This document shows positions 3,416 to 14,364 of a stretch of 49,496 bases of DNA, piece after piece; the stretch's first letter is position 1; each line of letters begins with the position of its first letter. The notes under the pieces were generated by a model that was not told the origin of the DNA, made no database searches, and saw only the letters and a program-made list of their open reading frames with translations. The translations under genes and the position numbers were made by a program. Source of the stretch: an uncultured Nitrosospira sp. (GTDB taxonomy: Bacteria; Nitrospirota; Nitrospiria; Nitrospirales; Nitrospiraceae); contig CAADGK010000005.1 of the NCBI GenBank assembly GCA_900696515.1, forward strand, positions 1 to 49,496, written 5' to 3'.

Positions 3416-6400
3416 ATGAGTCAACCACAACGGGCCAGCATTCTGAGCATCTTGTTTATGGGGCTAATCTTGACCGGTCAGGTCGCATTGGCACACACCG
3501 GCACAGCCACTCAACCAATCCAGAATGACCATCGCAGCGGGCCGCAACCAGTAACCGCATCACTACTCAATCTGCCCATCCAGTTCGAAGCGAACCAGGG
3601 CCAGGTCGATCAACAGGTCAAGTTTCTCGCGCGTGGCAAGGGCTACAATCTCTTTCTGACTCCAACTGAATCGGTGATGGTGCTCACCGGGCGTGATGCG
3701 TCACGCGTAACGGGTGACACGGGATCGGATCCGACGGATGCCCTAGGCCATGAGCCCCAGGCGTACAAGCACAGCGTGGTGCGGATGAAGCTCGAAGGGG
3801 CCAATCCCTCACCGGCCATTGATGGGATGGAACAGCTGCCTGGCATCGTGAACTACTTTATCGGCAACGATCCCGCCAAATGGCGCACAAAGATTCCCAC
3901 CTATGCAAAGGTCCACTACAAAGAGGCCTATCCGGGAATCGACCTGGCCTACTACGGAAACCAGGGCAAGCTGGAATATGACTTCATCGTCTCGCCTGGA
4001 GCCGATCCGAACCAGATCAAGCTGACCTTCGAGGGCGCGTCGGACATCACAGTGGCCGACAGCGGCGATCTGGTGCTGACCACGGCGCTCGGCGACGTGC
4101 GGGTCCAGAAACCGATTGTCTATCAATTGGAGAAAGATGGGCACAAAACACTGGTGGCTGGGAACTATATTATCGACATGGCATCAGATCGCTCGCAGAT
4201 AGCCTCCAGTCATTTGCTGACACATCGTGTCGGCATCCAATTGGCGGCCTATGATCATAAACGACCGGTAGTGATTGATCCAGTGCTGCTTTATTCGACC
4301 TATCTTGGTGGTGGTGCCGGTGAATTGGCACCCGGAGACGGTGCAGCAGGAATTGCGGTGGATGCTAGTGAAAATGTGTATATTGCTGCAGGGACAAATA
4401 CCACAGATTGGCCTGGAGCAACTGGCAGCGGAATACAGCACACGCTAGGCGGTGGGGGCGATGCCGTTGTTACAAAGCTGAATCCGACAGGATCGGCGAT
4501 TGTGTATTCCACCTATTTGGGTGGAACTGGGAATGATGGTGCTCGGAGTATAGCCGTGGACAACTCGGGCAATGCCTATGTGGTGGGCCAAGCAAACTCC
4601 GTAAACTTTCCAGTAACCGCAGGCAGCTTTCAGCAAAGCAAGGGTGGTGGAGCTTTTGACGCATTTGTAACCAAAATTAATCCATCTGGAACAGCTCTTA
4701 TCTACTCCTCATTCCTTGGTGGCAGCAGTGATGAAAACGCAAATGGACGAGGATCTTCGAGTATCGCTGTCGATGCATCGGGCAATGCGTATGTCACCGG
4801 GGTCACCTTTTCAACAAATTTCCCGGGCGCGTCGACGAGTGGAATACAACCAACCTTAGGTGGCGTCTCAGATGGGTTTCTTGTCAAAATTAACCCAAGT
4901 GGCTCTGCGCTCCTCTATTCAACGTACTTGGGAGGGGGGGGAAGTGATGAGGCATCCTCTGTCGCCATTGACGGGATTGGGAACGCATACGTAGCAGGGT
5001 TTACTAATTCTTCAAACTTCCCAGGGACAAGCTCAAGCGTAGTTCAACCCACCTTTGGTGGCGGATTTGATGGGTTCGTTCTCCGCATAAATCCACTCGG
5101 AACAGTCAGAGACTTTGCAACCTATCTAGGTGGTAGCGCAGACGATCGTATTATAAGCATTGCCGTCGATAATACAGGCAATATGTACGTGACTGGGAGT
5201 ACTGCGTCGTCAAATTTTCCTGGCACAGCCAGTAGTCCTATCCAGCCAACCTTCGGTGGTGGCATCAATGTTTTCATTACCAAGTTGGCTCCAGGACTTT
5301 CAGGAATAGTATATTCCTCTTATCTCGGCGGGTCCCCCAACGGTCAAGGTGCCAGTATTGCAGTAGATAGTGCAGGAAACGCTTTGGTTGCTGGATTTGG
5401 TGGAGTAATTTCCATTACTCCAGGCGCAATTCAGTCTACTCCAGGAGGAAATCAGGACGCCACTCTAGTCAAAGTGAATCCGTCTGGAACAAGTATTACT
5501 TACTCGACTTATCTCGGTGGACTCAGTGGAGATGGTGCGAAAGGGATAGTTGTAAGCCAGACTGGCACAACAGCTTACCTTGGGGGTACGACATGCTCGA
5601 CCAATTTCCCAATGATGAATCCGTTGCAGTCGTCGCTCGCGGGCTTGTGCGATATCTTTGTTGCAAAAATAGGATTACGGCCAACAGCCAATGCCGGCCC
5701 CGATCAATCGGTATCGATGGGCACGGTAGTGACGCTGGACGGAAGTGGATCAACCGGCGGAACCTTGACGTATAACTGGACCCAAGTTCCCGGGGGACCG
5801 ACCGTGGTGCTCAGTGGAGCCTCCGCCACCCATCCGACGTTTACGGCGCCGAACGTGCCCGTTGCTGGAGCGACCATCACCTTTCAGCTGGACGTCTGCG
5901 AAGGGACCAGTAGCAATTGCGGTGATCCCGATACGGTCAATGTCCATATCATGAACGTCAATCGTCCTCCAGTGGCCGAGGCGGGGCTGGATCAAACGGT
6001 GCAAGAAGGCAGTCCGGTCTTACTCAATGGGAGTGCCAGTTACGATCCGGATGTTGAATCCATCACCTATACCTGGCTCCAGGTCTTTGGGCCGACGGTG
6101 ACGCTGGCCTATCCGAATAGCGCTACACCGAATTTCACAGCGCCTCCTGTTGGGGCCAGTGGAGGACAGGTAGATTTCGAGCTCATTGTCACCGATACGC
6201 GGGGCTCGAATCACGCTGATTATGTCTCGGTCTTCATTTCGAACGTGAATCAGCCACCGGTCAGCAACGCCGGCCTGGATCAAACCCGAAACGAGAACAC
6301 GCTCGTGACGTTGGACGGAAGCAACAGCACAGACCCCGATCTGGATACTCTCCACTTCACTTGGAACCAGACCGGTGGGCCAACCGTGACACTCACGGGA

Positions 6401-6922
6401 GCGAACACGCCGAGTCCAACCTTTACCGCCCCGAATATCGGCCCTGGTGGGGCGCTGTTGACTTTCCAACTCGTGGTCACCGATGGACAAGCGAGCGGTG
6501 GGGCCGATACCGTGCAGGTCGCGGTCCAAGATGTCAATGATCCACCGGTCTGTACCTTAGCGCAGCCTAGTGTGGCGGTGCTCTGGCCACCGAACCATAC
6601 GATGGTGGAGGTGAGCATTCTGGGCGTCACAGATCCGAACAACAGCGCCGTCACGATTTCCTATCCTCACGTAACTCAGGATGAACCGATCAACGGCTTG
6701 GGCGATGGGGACACGGGGCCGGATGCCTTCGAGTCGGGCAACAATATCCTGCTGCGGGCAGAGCGGGCTGGTTCGGGAAACGGGCGGGTCTATGCGGTGC
6801 AATTCCGTGCGACAGATCCAGACGGAGCCAGCTGTACCGGCACAGTCAAAGTCTCTGTACCAAAGAGCATCAAGGACACCGCCGTGGACAGTGGTCAGAC
6901 CTACAATTCCTTTGGGCCATAG
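3416..6922 (+). CDS. Exported DUF7948/SBBP beta-propeller protein with PKD-like repeats
   Basis: The protein has 1168 residues and starts at an ATG preceded by AGAGGAGGGAG. The layout is: signal peptide (1-27, hydrophobic FMGLILTGQVALA), a DUF7948-type domain (about 50-285, beginning FEANQGQVDQQVKFLARG), seven SBBP blades (about 288-755) each with a YSTYLGG motif and an AVD-x-x-GNAYVxG motif, three PKD/REJ-type Ig-like domains (about 755-848, 849-944, 945-1040; each begins near NAGPDQ or AGLDQT and contains FTAPN), and a final domain with VLWPPNHTMV. It is a secreted or surface protein; the family is thought to mediate binding or adhesion, but no catalytic residues are evident. No C-terminal sorting signal was recognised. 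The propeller section has visibly lower GC than its flanks. Confidence 0.87.
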   Translation: MSQPQRASILSILFMGLILTGQVALAHTGTATQPIQNDHRSGPQPVTASLLNLPIQFEANQGQVDQQVKFLARGKGYNLFLTPTESVMVLTGRDASRVTGDTGSDPTDALGHEPQAYKHSVVRMKLEGANPSPAIDGMEQLPGIVNYFIGNDPAKWRTKIPTYAKVHYKEAYPGIDLAYYGNQGKLEYDFIVSPGADPNQIKLTFEGASDITVADSGDLVLTTALGDVRVQKPIVYQLEKDGHKTLVAGNYIIDMASDRSQIASSHLLTHRVGIQLAAYDHKRPVVIDPVLLYSTYLGGGAGELAPGDGAAGIAVDASENVYIAAGTNTTDWPGATGSGIQHTLGGGGDAVVTKLNPTGSAIVYSTYLGGTGNDGARSIAVDNSGNAYVVGQANSVNFPVTAGSFQQSKGGGAFDAFVTKINPSGTALIYSSFLGGSSDENANGRGSSSIAVDASGNAYVTGVTFSTNFPGASTSGIQPTLGGVSDGFLVKINPSGSALLYSTYLGGGGSDEASSVAIDGIGNAYVAGFTNSSNFPGTSSSVVQPTFGGGFDGFVLRINPLGTVRDFATYLGGSADDRIISIAVDNTGNMYVTGSTASSNFPGTASSPIQPTFGGGINVFITKLAPGLSGIVYSSYLGGSPNGQGASIAVDSAGNALVAGFGGVISITPGAIQSTPGGNQDATLVKVNPSGTSITYSTYLGGLSGDGAKGIVVSQTGTTAYLGGTTCSTNFPMMNPLQSSLAGLCDIFVAKIGLRPTANAGPDQSVSMGTVVTLDGSGSTGGTLTYNWTQVPGGPTVVLSGASATHPTFTAPNVPVAGATITFQLDVCEGTSSNCGDPDTVNVHIMNVNRPPVAEAGLDQTVQEGSPVLLNGSASYDPDVESITYTWLQVFGPTVTLAYPNSATPNFTAPPVGASGGQVDFELIVTDTRGSNHADYVSVFISNVNQPPVSNAGLDQTRNENTLVTLDGSNSTDPDLDTLHFTWNQTGGPTVTLTGANTPSPTFTAPNIGPGGALLTFQLVVTDGQASGGADTVQVAVQDVNDPPVCTLAQPSVAVLWPPNHTMVEVSILGVTDPNNSAVTISYPHVTQDEPINGLGDGDTGPDAFESGNNILLRAERAGSGNGRVYAVQFRATDPDGASCTGTVKVSVPKSIKDTAVDSGQTYNSFGP

Positions 6923-10489: not shown

Positions 10490-11347
10490 CTACGCAGCCA
10501 TCGTGTAGGGCTGAACCATTGTCAGAGCCTCTTGCAGCTGGGCCCGAACTGCGGCAAGGAGTGTCGGGAGATCGGCAGGCACAAACCCTGTGGCCGTGAT
10601 GGCTTGTGGACTGAACGGCGCGATTGCGGAGCGCCGACTGGAATCCATTTCTTCATAATCAGCAGCCACACCGGCCAGGTGGACAATAGATGCCACCAGG
10701 ATGAATTCACCGGCATCCTTTGGGCTCAGTTGGCAACGGATCGCCTGTTCGATCTGGACAGGCAAACCCCATGATCGGATGAGTTCCGCGCCGACTTCAG
10801 CAAAGTCGCATCCGATATTGGACTGTTCTACTTCGGCCAGGGATGCTTCCAGATACCCCGCTTCGATCAACGCCGACTGGGCCCGCTGTGGAACAGTCTG
10901 GTAAAGGACCAAGTGACCGATGTCGCGCAACAGGCCGGCGACGTAGGATTGTTCATGGCTATCGACACCACAGGACTTCGCAATGGCTCGCGCCAGGAGG
11001 GCGCAGAAGACACTCTTTCGCCAGAATTTTGACAGATCCATGAGATGAACCGGCAACCCCGCGAAGGTTTGACCGACGGTCGTGGTCGCGATGACATCGG
11101 TGATGCCTTGCTTCCCAAGGAGTTGGACCGCATGGGTCACGGTGTCAACCCCTCTGGATGGTCCATTCGGGAGATTATTGGCCATGCGAAGCAGCCTCAC
11201 GACGATACCCGGATCCAGCTGAAGAGCTTTGACTCGATCTTCCGACGTTGCGTTGGGATCCTCCACCACATCTCGCACTCGACAATACACTTCCGGCAAT
11301 GTCGAGACTGCGGCGCACGCTTGGACCAATTCACTCGCCAATGGCAT
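10490..11347 (-). CDS. HDOD-domain protein, paralogue A
   Basis: The protein has 285 residues and is a single HDOD (modified HD) domain, about residues 10-210: LPEVYCRVRDVV, QLDPGIVVRLLRMAN, AVQLLGKQGITDVI, and ARAIAKSCG...VAGLLRDIGHLVLY. HDOD proteins act in signalling of motility, chemotaxis and stress, generally without HD catalytic metal chemistry. AAGGAGGGG precedes the ATG. It aligns without gaps to the gene at 13420-14277. The usual NS-x-x-YG segment after LLRM is altered here (NNLPNGPSRG). A sigma-28-like promoter lies about 50 bases upstream. Confidence 0.87.
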   Translation of the reverse strand: MPLASELVQACAAVSTLPEVYCRVRDVVEDPNATSEDRVKALQLDPGIVVRLLRMANNLPNGPSRGVDTVTHAVQLLGKQGITDVIATTTVGQTFAGLPVHLMDLSKFWRKSVFCALLARAIAKSCGVDSHEQSYVAGLLRDIGHLVLYQTVPQRAQSALIEAGYLEASLAEVEQSNIGCDFAEVGAELIRSWGLPVQIEQAIRCQLSPKDAGEFILVASIVHLAGVAADYEEMDSSRRSAIAPFSPQAITATGFVPADLPTLLAAVRAQLQEALTMVQPYTMAA

Positions 11348-11398
11348 GGTCGAGCCCCTCCTTCCTACCTGTCGATACAGACCGGCTCTCCACTTTCT

Positions 11399-11426
11399 CT
11401 ATCGGCTGGGAATGGGAAAAACTATC
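11399..11426 (-). promoter_or_regulatory. Sigma-28 (FliA)-like promoter of HDOD paralogue A
   Basis: On the minus strand GATAGTTT (11419-11426), 12 bases, then GCCGATAG (11399-11406). The FliA consensus is TAAAGTTT-N11-GCCGATAA; matches are six of eight and seven of eight, with one extra spacer base. Predicted start of transcription about 45 bases before the ATG. Confidence 0.5.
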
Positions 11427-11603
11427 GCGGAAGCAGGCTATGGAACTGCGTACGTCCTGCCATCGTCATGAATTTTAGCTCTAAAATGGTTGAATCGACT
11501 ATCAGATTGCCGTTCCCTGCATACGGCCATGCCAGTCGGAAGGGCGGATCATCACATGATTCCGGATGGCTTGTGCGGCATCTGACTTCGATCGATCATA
11601 CCC

Positions 11604-11631
11604 TCAAGGTTGGCGTGCGTCTCACCGATAG
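11604..11631 (+). promoter_or_regulatory. Sigma-28 (FliA)-like promoter of the HDOD-GAF gene
   Basis: TCAAGGTT (11604-11611), 12 bases, then ACCGATAG (11624-11631). Each half matches the FliA consensus in six of eight positions, and the spacing is identical to the sites before the two other HDOD genes. It sits 28 bases before ATG 11660, which supports that start. Confidence 0.4.
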
Positions 11632-11659
11632 GGTATCTGATCTCCCATTGGAACCTTCT

Positions 11660-13246
11660 ATGTCTTCCTCAATTACGGCCACGGAATCGGCCCTCATCGA
11701 CTCGATCCGCCCGCGGCTCCATCCGAAGCTCAAGCCGCTGTTCGATGAATCCAGCCGTTGCTTGCCGATCCTCCAATCTACCTGCCAGCAAATCCTGGAT
11801 GATGCAGGCCAACAGTCCACTCCCGACAATCTGCTCCACGTGATCAGCCGGGACCATGGGCTCACCTGCAAAGTCCTGCAAGTGGCAAATAGTATCGCCT
11901 ATAGCCCGCAACAGACGATCAGCGCCATTCCCCACGCCGTGAGTTGGCTCGGACTCGATACCGTTCGCGCTCTCGTCGCTGCCGCGCATCTGGTCGAGCA
12001 ATTGCAGCATTGGCCGGCCCGTCAGCAGGAACTCCGAAATTTGATCGCCAAATCCCTGGTCTCCGCCACCTACGCCAATGAGTTCGGAGCCGCGATCAAC
12101 TACCCGCAGCCCGGTCAGTTGTTTACCGCGGCACTCCTGTACGCGATCGGGGACCTTGCCATCGCCTATCAGGATCCGGATCTCTTTGAATCGCTCCAGG
12201 CCATTTCCCGGAACACCAAACACCGCGCCGACCGTGTCAGTCAAGAGACCAGGCTCATCGGAGTTCCCCGGCTGTCGTTAGCCCGAGCCTTGGCAAGACT
12301 GTGGAAACTCCCGGACAATCTCGTGGACCTCTTCGACAGTGCCGGAGAATTGCAGGCTGGACATTGGCAGAGCGCTCCACAGACCTATCGAGGTCTCGTA
12401 GTTGGCTCGATCCAACTGGTTGACGTCATGACGGGCTCAGGGTCCGCTACTGCCGTCGAAGAAGCGAAGCGGACGCTCCGGCTCGGAAGCGGATTGTCTT
12501 CAGCCCGGTTTGCAGATGTGATGGTCCAGGCTATGGACCGGGGGCTCCAGCTGACCCGATCCATGGGACTGGTGGTCGATCAGTTTTGCGACTCATCGGC
12601 CACGTCGAACGGACACTCCCTCACCGAACCGACTGCGCTCTCGTCCTCATCCGCCAACCCATCACGTCAAGACCAGGCATGCGCTCCGCAGAGGGGTTCT
12701 CCCGCGCGTGATGAGCCGGCGGCGCCCATTCGAAGCAACCCGCTCAAAACACTGCAGGCTTTTCAGGACTCGTTGCAGAGTGCGAAGGATCTGAACAGCC
12801 TCCTGGGAATATTTGTCCGATCGCTTCATCACGATGCAGGGCTGGATCGTGTCGGACTGGCATTGCTCAATCCAAGCGATAGTGATCTCCTGGTTGGAAG
12901 GCTGGCGCTCGGTGTTGCTCCCCCAGCCCCCTATCTCTCGTCTCTTTCTGGCTCTCTCAGCCGAGAACATCCCTTTTTCCTCTCGATTCTGAAACGGGTC
13001 GATCCACTCCTGGTTCCACGCTTTTCCGACCAGCCGGCTGGGACCATCAAGCAGGACTTTCTTGATGTCTGGCACCCCGCCTCGGCAATCCTCGCCCCGT
13101 TGCGAGTAGGGGTGAGACCCATCGGGCTTGTCTACTGTGACCGGATATCGAGCTGCCTGCCGGTGCAGGCTCAGGACTACCAGGCCTTTCAGTTATTCTT
13201 GAGCCAGACGACATTGGGAATGAATCGCTTAGCCGGCATACTCTAA
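11660..13246 (+). CDS. HDOD-domain protein with C-terminal GAF-like domain
   Basis: The product is 528 residues from ATG 11660. The in-frame ATG at 11468 would add 64 residues of no recognisable fold and lies upstream of the likely promoter. Residues about 20-235 form an HDOD domain: LPILQSTCQQIL, SRDHGLTCKVLQVANSIAY, AVSWLGLDTVRAL, TAALLYAIGDLAI. Residues 280-355 are a low-complexity Ser/Pro linker. Residues 362-520 look like a GAF domain (ALLNPSDSDLL, APLRVGVRPIGLVYCD). This pairing of HDOD and GAF is typical of signal-input proteins, where GAF binds a small ligand. It is divergent from paralogue A and converges with paralogue B. Confidence 0.83.
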   Translation: MSSSITATESALIDSIRPRLHPKLKPLFDESSRCLPILQSTCQQILDDAGQQSTPDNLLHVISRDHGLTCKVLQVANSIAYSPQQTISAIPHAVSWLGLDTVRALVAAAHLVEQLQHWPARQQELRNLIAKSLVSATYANEFGAAINYPQPGQLFTAALLYAIGDLAIAYQDPDLFESLQAISRNTKHRADRVSQETRLIGVPRLSLARALARLWKLPDNLVDLFDSAGELQAGHWQSAPQTYRGLVVGSIQLVDVMTGSGSATAVEEAKRTLRLGSGLSSARFADVMVQAMDRGLQLTRSMGLVVDQFCDSSATSNGHSLTEPTALSSSSANPSRQDQACAPQRGSPARDEPAAPIRSNPLKTLQAFQDSLQSAKDLNSLLGIFVRSLHHDAGLDRVGLALLNPSDSDLLVGRLALGVAPPAPYLSSLSGSLSREHPFFLSILKRVDPLLVPRFSDQPAGTIKQDFLDVWHPASAILAPLRVGVRPIGLVYCDRISSCLPVQAQDYQAFQLFLSQTTLGMNRLAGIL

Positions 13247-13419
13247 CCTCACGGCCGACACACGAATCGGGCACCACACTGTCGAACGGCTCCCTACTCA
13301 TCCGGATTAGACAACAGGAAGGGCTCTCACAGAGACGCGTCGGTACTACCTGACAATCAGGATATGCAGATCGTGTCGGAGGGGGCTGAGGTTCGGCTCC
13401 CCGATAGATTGCGACACGG

Positions 13420-14277
13420 TTACACAGCGACGGCCTGGGGGTAGACAAGCGCAAGCATATCGCCCAACTGGGCCTGCGCATACGCCATCAGCTCCGGAAG
13501 ATTGGCCAACACAAAACCTGTCGTGTGCAAGGCCTGCGGATCAAACGGCACTTCAGTGGGGCGCTGCTTCGAGTCATGCTCCACACAGTCGACAACCGCT
13601 CCAGCCAGATGGACGATGGACGCATGCAGGATATAGTCACCGGCCTCGCTTGGGCTCAGCTGATGACGGATAGCCTGTTCAATTTGTGCAGGCAGCCCCC
13701 AGGATCGGACAAGTTCGGCTCCGACTTCTGCAAAATCACACCCAATGTTGGACCGCTCCACCTCAGCAAGGGACACGTCAAGATGGCCCGCCTCAATGAG
13801 CGCGGACTGTGCCCGCTGCGGGGCATATTGATAGAGCACAAAGTGACCGAGGTCTCTCAGCAGGCCTTCCACGAAGTGGCGCTCGCTGTCCTTAATGCCG
13901 CAAGACTTGGCGATCTTTCCGGCCAGCAACGCGCAGAGCACACTTCGATGCCAGAACTTTGATACATCCATCAGTTGAATCGGGACTCCGGCAAAGGTCT
14001 TGCCGACCGTCGTCGCCGTGACAAGATCAGTAATGGCTTGTGTCCCGAGAAGACTGACGGCACGAGAAATCGTCTCGACCTGTTTCGGAAACCCATACAC
14101 GGGGCTATTGACGATGCGGAGGAGTCTGGCCGAGATGGCTGGATCCAGCTTGAGAACATCGGCAAGATCCCCCATGGTCGAATTGGAATCATCGACCACC
14201 TCCCGTACACGGAAGTAGATCTCCGGCAATGTAAAAATGGAGGTGCAGGACTGCACCAGTTCTTGTGCCGATGGCAT
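13420..14277 (-). CDS. HDOD-domain protein, paralogue B
   Basis: The protein has 285 residues, the same length as the gene at 10490-11347, and they align without gaps; long identical blocks include PQRAQSALIEAG and SNIGCDFAEVGAEL. It keeps the standard segment LLRIVNSPVYGFP that paralogue A has lost, so it is probably nearer the ancestral form. HDOD domain about 10-210, then about 75 residues of variable tail. HDOD proteins are regulatory, often linked with chemotaxis, c-di-GMP signalling or surface motility. A sigma-28-like promoter stands about 60 bases upstream of the ATG. Confidence 0.88.
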   Translation of the reverse strand: MPSAQELVQSCTSIFTLPEIYFRVREVVDDSNSTMGDLADVLKLDPAISARLLRIVNSPVYGFPKQVETISRAVSLLGTQAITDLVTATTVGKTFAGVPIQLMDVSKFWHRSVLCALLAGKIAKSCGIKDSERHFVEGLLRDLGHFVLYQYAPQRAQSALIEAGHLDVSLAEVERSNIGCDFAEVGAELVRSWGLPAQIEQAIRHQLSPSEAGDYILHASIVHLAGAVVDCVEHDSKQRPTEVPFDPQALHTTGFVLANLPELMAYAQAQLGDMLALVYPQAVAV

Positions 14278-14336
14278 GATGGCGATTCCTCGTCGTCGGG
14301 CGCCTCGCTGCCTCTACAGCTGGGCCTTCACTGTCT

Positions 14337-14364
14337 CTATCGGCTATGAACGGACAGAACTGTA
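14337..14364 (-). promoter_or_regulatory. Sigma-28 (FliA)-like promoter of HDOD paralogue B
   Basis: On the minus strand TACAGTTC (14357-14364), 12 bases, then GCCGATAG (14337-14344). Matches to the FliA consensus are six and seven of eight. The -10 box and the bases after it (GCCGATAGAGA) are the same as in front of paralogue A, while the surrounding sequence has diverged. Confidence 0.5.

Follow-up and report, generated by a model that had tools for sequence, protein, structure and literature searches.

Three neighbouring genes for HDOD proteins in a Nitrospira genome are preceded by sites which are, with high confidence, genuine FliA-type (sigma-28) promoters. These sites assign all three genes, HDOD1, HDOD-GAF and HDOD3, to the regulon of late flagellar genes in Nitrospira. 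FliA binding and transcription of the HDOD genes are predicted here from sequence. The genome (4.59 Mb, 144 contigs, 99.99% complete) carries the three genes on contig C5, which is the window analysed (the whole stretch of 49,496 nucleotides). The genes and their putative promoters are located as follows.

10490 to 11347, minus strand: HDOD1, 285 amino acids, HDOD domain only (Pfam PF08668, 151 bits), start codon at 11347
11399 to 11426, minus strand: FliA-type promoter of HDOD1, GATAGTTT-N12-GCCGATAG, 51 bases 5' of the start codon
11604 to 11631, plus strand: FliA-type promoter of HDOD-GAF, TCAAGGTT-N12-ACCGATAG, equivalent to TCAAG-N15-ACCGATAG, 28 bases 5' of the start codon
11660 to 13246, plus strand: HDOD-GAF, 528 amino acids, HDOD domain (Pfam, 117 bits) and GAF domain (22.9 bits), start codon at 11660
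13420 to 14277, minus strand: HDOD3, 285 amino acids, HDOD domain only (Pfam PF08668, 186 bits), start codon at 14277
14337 to 14364, minus strand: FliA-type promoter of HDOD3, TACAGTTC-N12-GCCGATAG, 59 bases 5' of the start codon

Direct reading of the DNA bore out the description in an earlier note on this window, namely the coordinates of the three sites, their common 12-base spacing and their agreement with the halves TAAAGTTT and GCCGATAA (6+7 of 8 positions for HDOD1, 6+6 for HDOD-GAF and 6+7 for HDOD3). The distances measured to the HDOD start codons (51, 28 and 59 bases) fall within the 28 to 60 bases given there, and Pfam agrees on an HDOD domain in all three proteins and a GAF domain in the second. 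All three sites possess a -10 element resembling GCCGATAA (GCCGATAG, ACCGATAG and GCCGATAG, respectively). At the -35 position, where a TAAAG-like element is expected and TCAAG is used in this genome, HDOD-GAF has TCAAG and its relatives have TTAAG, whereas the elements of HDOD1 (GATAG) and HDOD3 (TACAG) are weaker and unlike the TCAAG of the flagellar genes, yet conserved among orthologues. At 65% DNA identity, HDOD1 and HDOD3 form a pair of tandem paralogues, so their sites have a single evolutionary origin and are not independent; the earlier observation of three sites is real and stronger than first stated, but two of them share ancestry. A search for a sigma-70-like promoter near the HDOD starts found none. 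HDOD3 and HDOD-GAF are convergent, and synteny comparison showed that the arrangement of this pair is retained in most relatives. Wherever the HDOD-GAF gene occurs in named records, the genome is from Nitrospira or Nitrospiraceae/Nitrospirae. Elsewhere in the window, positions 3416-6922 encode a large protein of 1168 amino acids with DUF7948, SBBP beta-propeller repeats and PKD domains.

Absence of fliA had been named as a finding that would speak against the proposal, but the genome does harbor the gene: one family member scores above the curated FliA/WhiG cut-off (255.6 bits, cut-off 189.6). It lies on contig C143 together with flagellin, two MCP genes, flgM and other flagellar genes. The local motif as defined by the genome's own flagellar genes is TCAAG-N14/15-RCCGATA, with the following reference promoters.

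Flagellin promoter: TCAAG-N14-GCCGATAA
flgM promoter: TCAAG-N15-ACCGATAA
Promoter of the YcgR-like PilZ gene: TCAAG-N15-GCCGATAG
HD-GYP gene promoter: TCAAG-N15-ACCGATAA

The HDOD-GAF site fits this motif perfectly and is one of the 19 matches to TCAAGN{14,15}RCCGATA found genome-wide, as compared to a single match for the reversed-pattern control. The genes behind the matching sites include, besides HDOD-GAF, those for flagellin, flgM, a YcgR-like PilZNR protein, an HD-GYP protein with DUF3391, an MCP-type sensor, a basal-body rod protein and a PilZ protein; part of the matches are intragenic or ahead of unrelated frames. The earlier note had also named equally good matches in front of random genes as evidence against the proposal, but these were not seen: the genome-wide set consists mostly of flagellar, chemotaxis and c-di-GMP genes, and no FliA-type site was found before the three other HDOD genes of this genome. 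These counts come from genome-wide pattern searches supplemented with about 0.4 Mb of stretches rather than from a weight-matrix scan. The pattern AGTTN13RCCGATAR occurs at five sites only, in front of HDOD1, HDOD3, HD-GYP, flgM and one unknown gene.

The spacer of the HDOD sites is one base longer than that of flagellin and corresponds to that of flgM, YcgR and HD-GYP; the extra base is present at 8 of the 19 motif sites. It is no objection to a FliA assignment, because the flgM spacer itself varies among six species (N14 in three, N15 in three). Sites mapped for E. coli FliA include ycgR (TTAAG-N14-ACCGATAA) and flgK (TCAAG-N14-GCCGATAA) (PMC4183435), so the -35 variants of Nitrospira are known for this sigma factor.

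These sites might instead be bound by some other regulator, or by a further alternative sigma factor whose recognition sequence is similar, which would leave HDOD expression unlinked to flagella. The HDOD1 and HDOD3 -35 elements that differ from those of flagellar genes, the several further sigma-70 family genes in the genome and the location of the HDOD genes outside the flagellar contig would all fit with this. Those further sigma genes score below the FliA cut-off, however, which only one family member passes, and the HDOD-GAF site shares both elements and the spacing with flgM, YcgR and HD-GYP. Moreover, the elements stay while the spacer drifts by a base, as is typical of sigma promoters, and the motif is less dense in fliA-negative genomes (median 2.3 per Mb) than in fliA-positive ones (4.4 per Mb, p = 0.005). 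We consider recognition by another regulator quite improbable as compared to recognition by FliA.

The numbers from the window do not by themselves distinguish real promoters from chance matches. Sites with both halves at 6/8 or better and a spacer of 12 occur 10 times in 315 kb of this genome, the three HDOD sites included (0.0016 for a 100-bp upstream region read on one strand), and the window count of 4 versus a Markov mean of 1.2 is merely suggestive. Heptamers resembling GCCGATA are common, and three could have been picked from many; GCCGATAGAG by itself shows no enrichment in the genome (22 versus 25 for the control) and the window count is barely above that of shuffled sequences. Against this stand the low background of T[CT]AAG-N14/15-NCCGATA (0.0008 per 100 bp) and, above all, position-specific conservation in dozens of genomes from several genera, amid diverging intergenic DNA. 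It is this conservation in relatives that, at the level of sequence, settles the reality of the sites; chance matching is already ruled out by it and carries next to no weight. Summed over the 52 fliA-positive genomes, TYAAGN{14,15}RCCGATA gave 855 matches versus 156 for the control.

The comparison of upstream regions in related genomes, which the earlier note had suggested, showed near total conservation of the sites across the genus. The HDOD-GAF site is present in 36 of 36 genus-sample genomes with an intact gene, and extra genus loci from an order-level search agree. Outside the genus, 7 of 7 homologues from three further genera of the family carry a comparable site; their spacers range from 14 to 16, and some have TAAAT or a weaker -35 element. 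Alignment of 30 distinct HDOD-GAF upstream regions revealed that T[CT]AAG (TYAAG) and ACCGATA are conserved while spacer and flanks drift. Nearly every readable HDOD3 orthologue has TACAG or TATAG together with NCCGATA, at a spacing of N15 or, in one lineage, N14; the exceptions at -35 are CCACG in one and TATGG in two. HDOD1 occurs in fewer species, and GATAGTTT-N12-[AG]CCGATA is found at equal distance in 6 of 6 relatives. The NCCGATA -10 element is conserved at all intact homologues. An apparent lack of the site in homologues of about 51% identity was rejected, as it arose from a motif with R at the first -10 base; these homologues have TTAAG-N15-TCCGATAC. Three HDOD-GAF copies stand in tandem in G043 and G014 (L178, L179); every copy has a FliA-type site of its own, and the -10 elements differ (ACCGATAG, TCCGATAC).

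HDOD-GAF co-occurs with fliA and flagellin. Of the 59 genus genomes, 52 carry fliA and seven do not. One of these seven, G054, does have flagellin; as it is just 87% complete, its assembly probably misses fliA. The other six also lack flagellin. All 36 genomes with intact HDOD-GAF and its site have fliA or, in the incomplete G054, flagellin, whereas an intact gene occurs in none of the six genomes without both, three of which are less than 80% complete (Fisher p = 0.0022, a statistic that ignores phylogeny). In G021, which is 99% complete and has neither fliA nor flagellin, HDOD-GAF is broken by a deletion and a frame change while the promoter is intact (L176, G021:C85:36600-38600), possibly the result of a recent loss of flagella. 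The flagellated G024 also carries a decayed copy, and an intact HDOD-GAF is absent from 17 of the flagellated genomes sampled. The gene is therefore an accessory of motility rather than a core or required component.

Because their start signals are of the FliA type and strongly conserved, the HDOD regulators are probably made with the flagellum, as the cell builds its swimming apparatus. The idea of an HDOD set switched on with motility is thus supported as an interpretation, but in a weaker form than originally put, since the switching follows from promoter type and co-occurrence. In other bacteria FliA is subject to an established checkpoint in which the sigma factor is freed from FlgM once the hook-basal body is complete. 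By the same route, a finished hook-basal body in Nitrospira would release FliA from FlgM, and the freed FliA would transcribe the HDOD genes beside flgM, flagellin, the YcgR-like PilZ gene, HD-GYP and other late genes. The HDOD proteins might then act as non-enzymatic adaptors that tune either the output of the motor or the expression of chemotaxis genes, and the GAF domain of HDOD-GAF would be a likely signal-sensing module. By analogy with HDOD proteins studied elsewhere, the most likely role would be that of a feedback adaptor which acts on motor or chemotaxis and uses GAF as sensor. We more tentatively propose, as an arrangement that falls somewhat short of even chances, that Nitrospiraceae possess a dedicated post-assembly HDOD signalling module, composed of an HDOD-GAF sensor and HDOD-only partners. 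Conserved promoters that differ stepwise in -35 strength would make it part of the FliA regulon and so tie HDOD output to completion of the flagellum.

HDOD proteins are widespread and their function is mostly unknown. Several have been connected to swimming without known catalysis: loss or overexpression of GsmR (Xanthomonas), Cj0248 (Campylobacter jejuni), PSPTO_4229 (Pseudomonas syringae) and I2285 (Burkholderia) alters it (PMC11813219, PMC11004494, PMC9040570), and PFL_0554/PFL_5871 likewise alter swimming. PSPTO_4229 is similar to HDOD1 and HDOD3 in size (about 270-285 amino acids) and in having the HDOD domain only, whereas the HDOD-GAF architecture differs from that of GsmR, Cj0248, PSPTO_4229 and I2285. 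GsmR is described as controlled by Clp and as acting on genes for flagellum synthesis, whereas the proteins of Nitrospira are predicted to be downstream of FliA. Additionally, an HDOD domain is linked to chemotaxis gene transcription in the 2019 work on CheP/CheQ, as cited in PMC6416229 and PMC9040570; going by the description in these citing papers, HDOD-mediated indirect control of chemotaxis gene expression may be a shared mechanism.

The promoters could also be FliA-dependent with the HDOD proteins serving a process other than swimming, for example surface attachment, so that the flagellar programme provides timing only. HDOD is a regulatory domain of varied roles, and the flagellated genomes without an intact HDOD-GAF are consistent with such a function. 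We nevertheless regard it as rather unlikely, though less remote than another regulator, given that HDOD proteins elsewhere repeatedly affect swimming or chemotaxis (PMC11813219, PMC11004494, PMC9040570, PMC6416229) and that genomes without flagella have no intact HDOD-GAF. The three HDOD proteins appear to lack the HD catalytic signature, judged by eye from the sequences, with RDxGH or YAxGD at the place of the usual HDxGK of HD proteins. Solved structural relatives are 3m1t, 3mem, 3hc1 and 1vqr. In the AlphaFold model of HDOD-GAF a GAF fold is predicted at 353-528 (Z 18.5 to 3oov), but it matches many GAF domains and is thus uninformative on the ligand; the HDOD part is of low confidence, so no argument is built on it.

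Similar to the E. coli FliA regulon (including ycgR and yhjH), that of Nitrospira has a bipartite promoter and c-di-GMP output proteins among the late genes; unlike the E. coli system, it adds a spacer base at many sites and three HDOD genes as targets. The HDOD promoters are thus not a novel kind of system but a new and well-supported branch within a type of regulon that is already known. The literature searched contained HDOD-motility links but no FliA-dependent HDOD gene or other FliA-HDOD link, and nothing was found in it on flagellar control in Nitrospira. For the HDOD proteins studied here, the conserved FliA-type promoters point to a condition under which they would be expressed and to a role in motility that can be tested. 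The analysis also yields a usable FliA motif, T[CT]AAG-N14/15-NCCGATA, and an initial list of regulon genes in Nitrospira, a genus of nitrifiers in which genetic manipulation is difficult.

Further FliA-like sites were observed in the same genome. At C135:27778-27805 (L166), TTAAG-N15-GCCGATAG lies 48 bases ahead of the gene for an uncharacterised protein of 304 amino acids with no Pfam match, and a near-identical counterpart exists in the relative G006 (C14:32415). On the flagellar contig, TCAAG-N15-GCCGATAT at C143:27155-27181 (L078) precedes a gene for a 76-amino acid HTH_17 protein by 10 bases. On the same contig, the YcgR-like PilZ and HD-GYP genes have two divergent FliA-type promoters (C143:54302-54426; L080, L081), an arrangement also found in G006 and G042.
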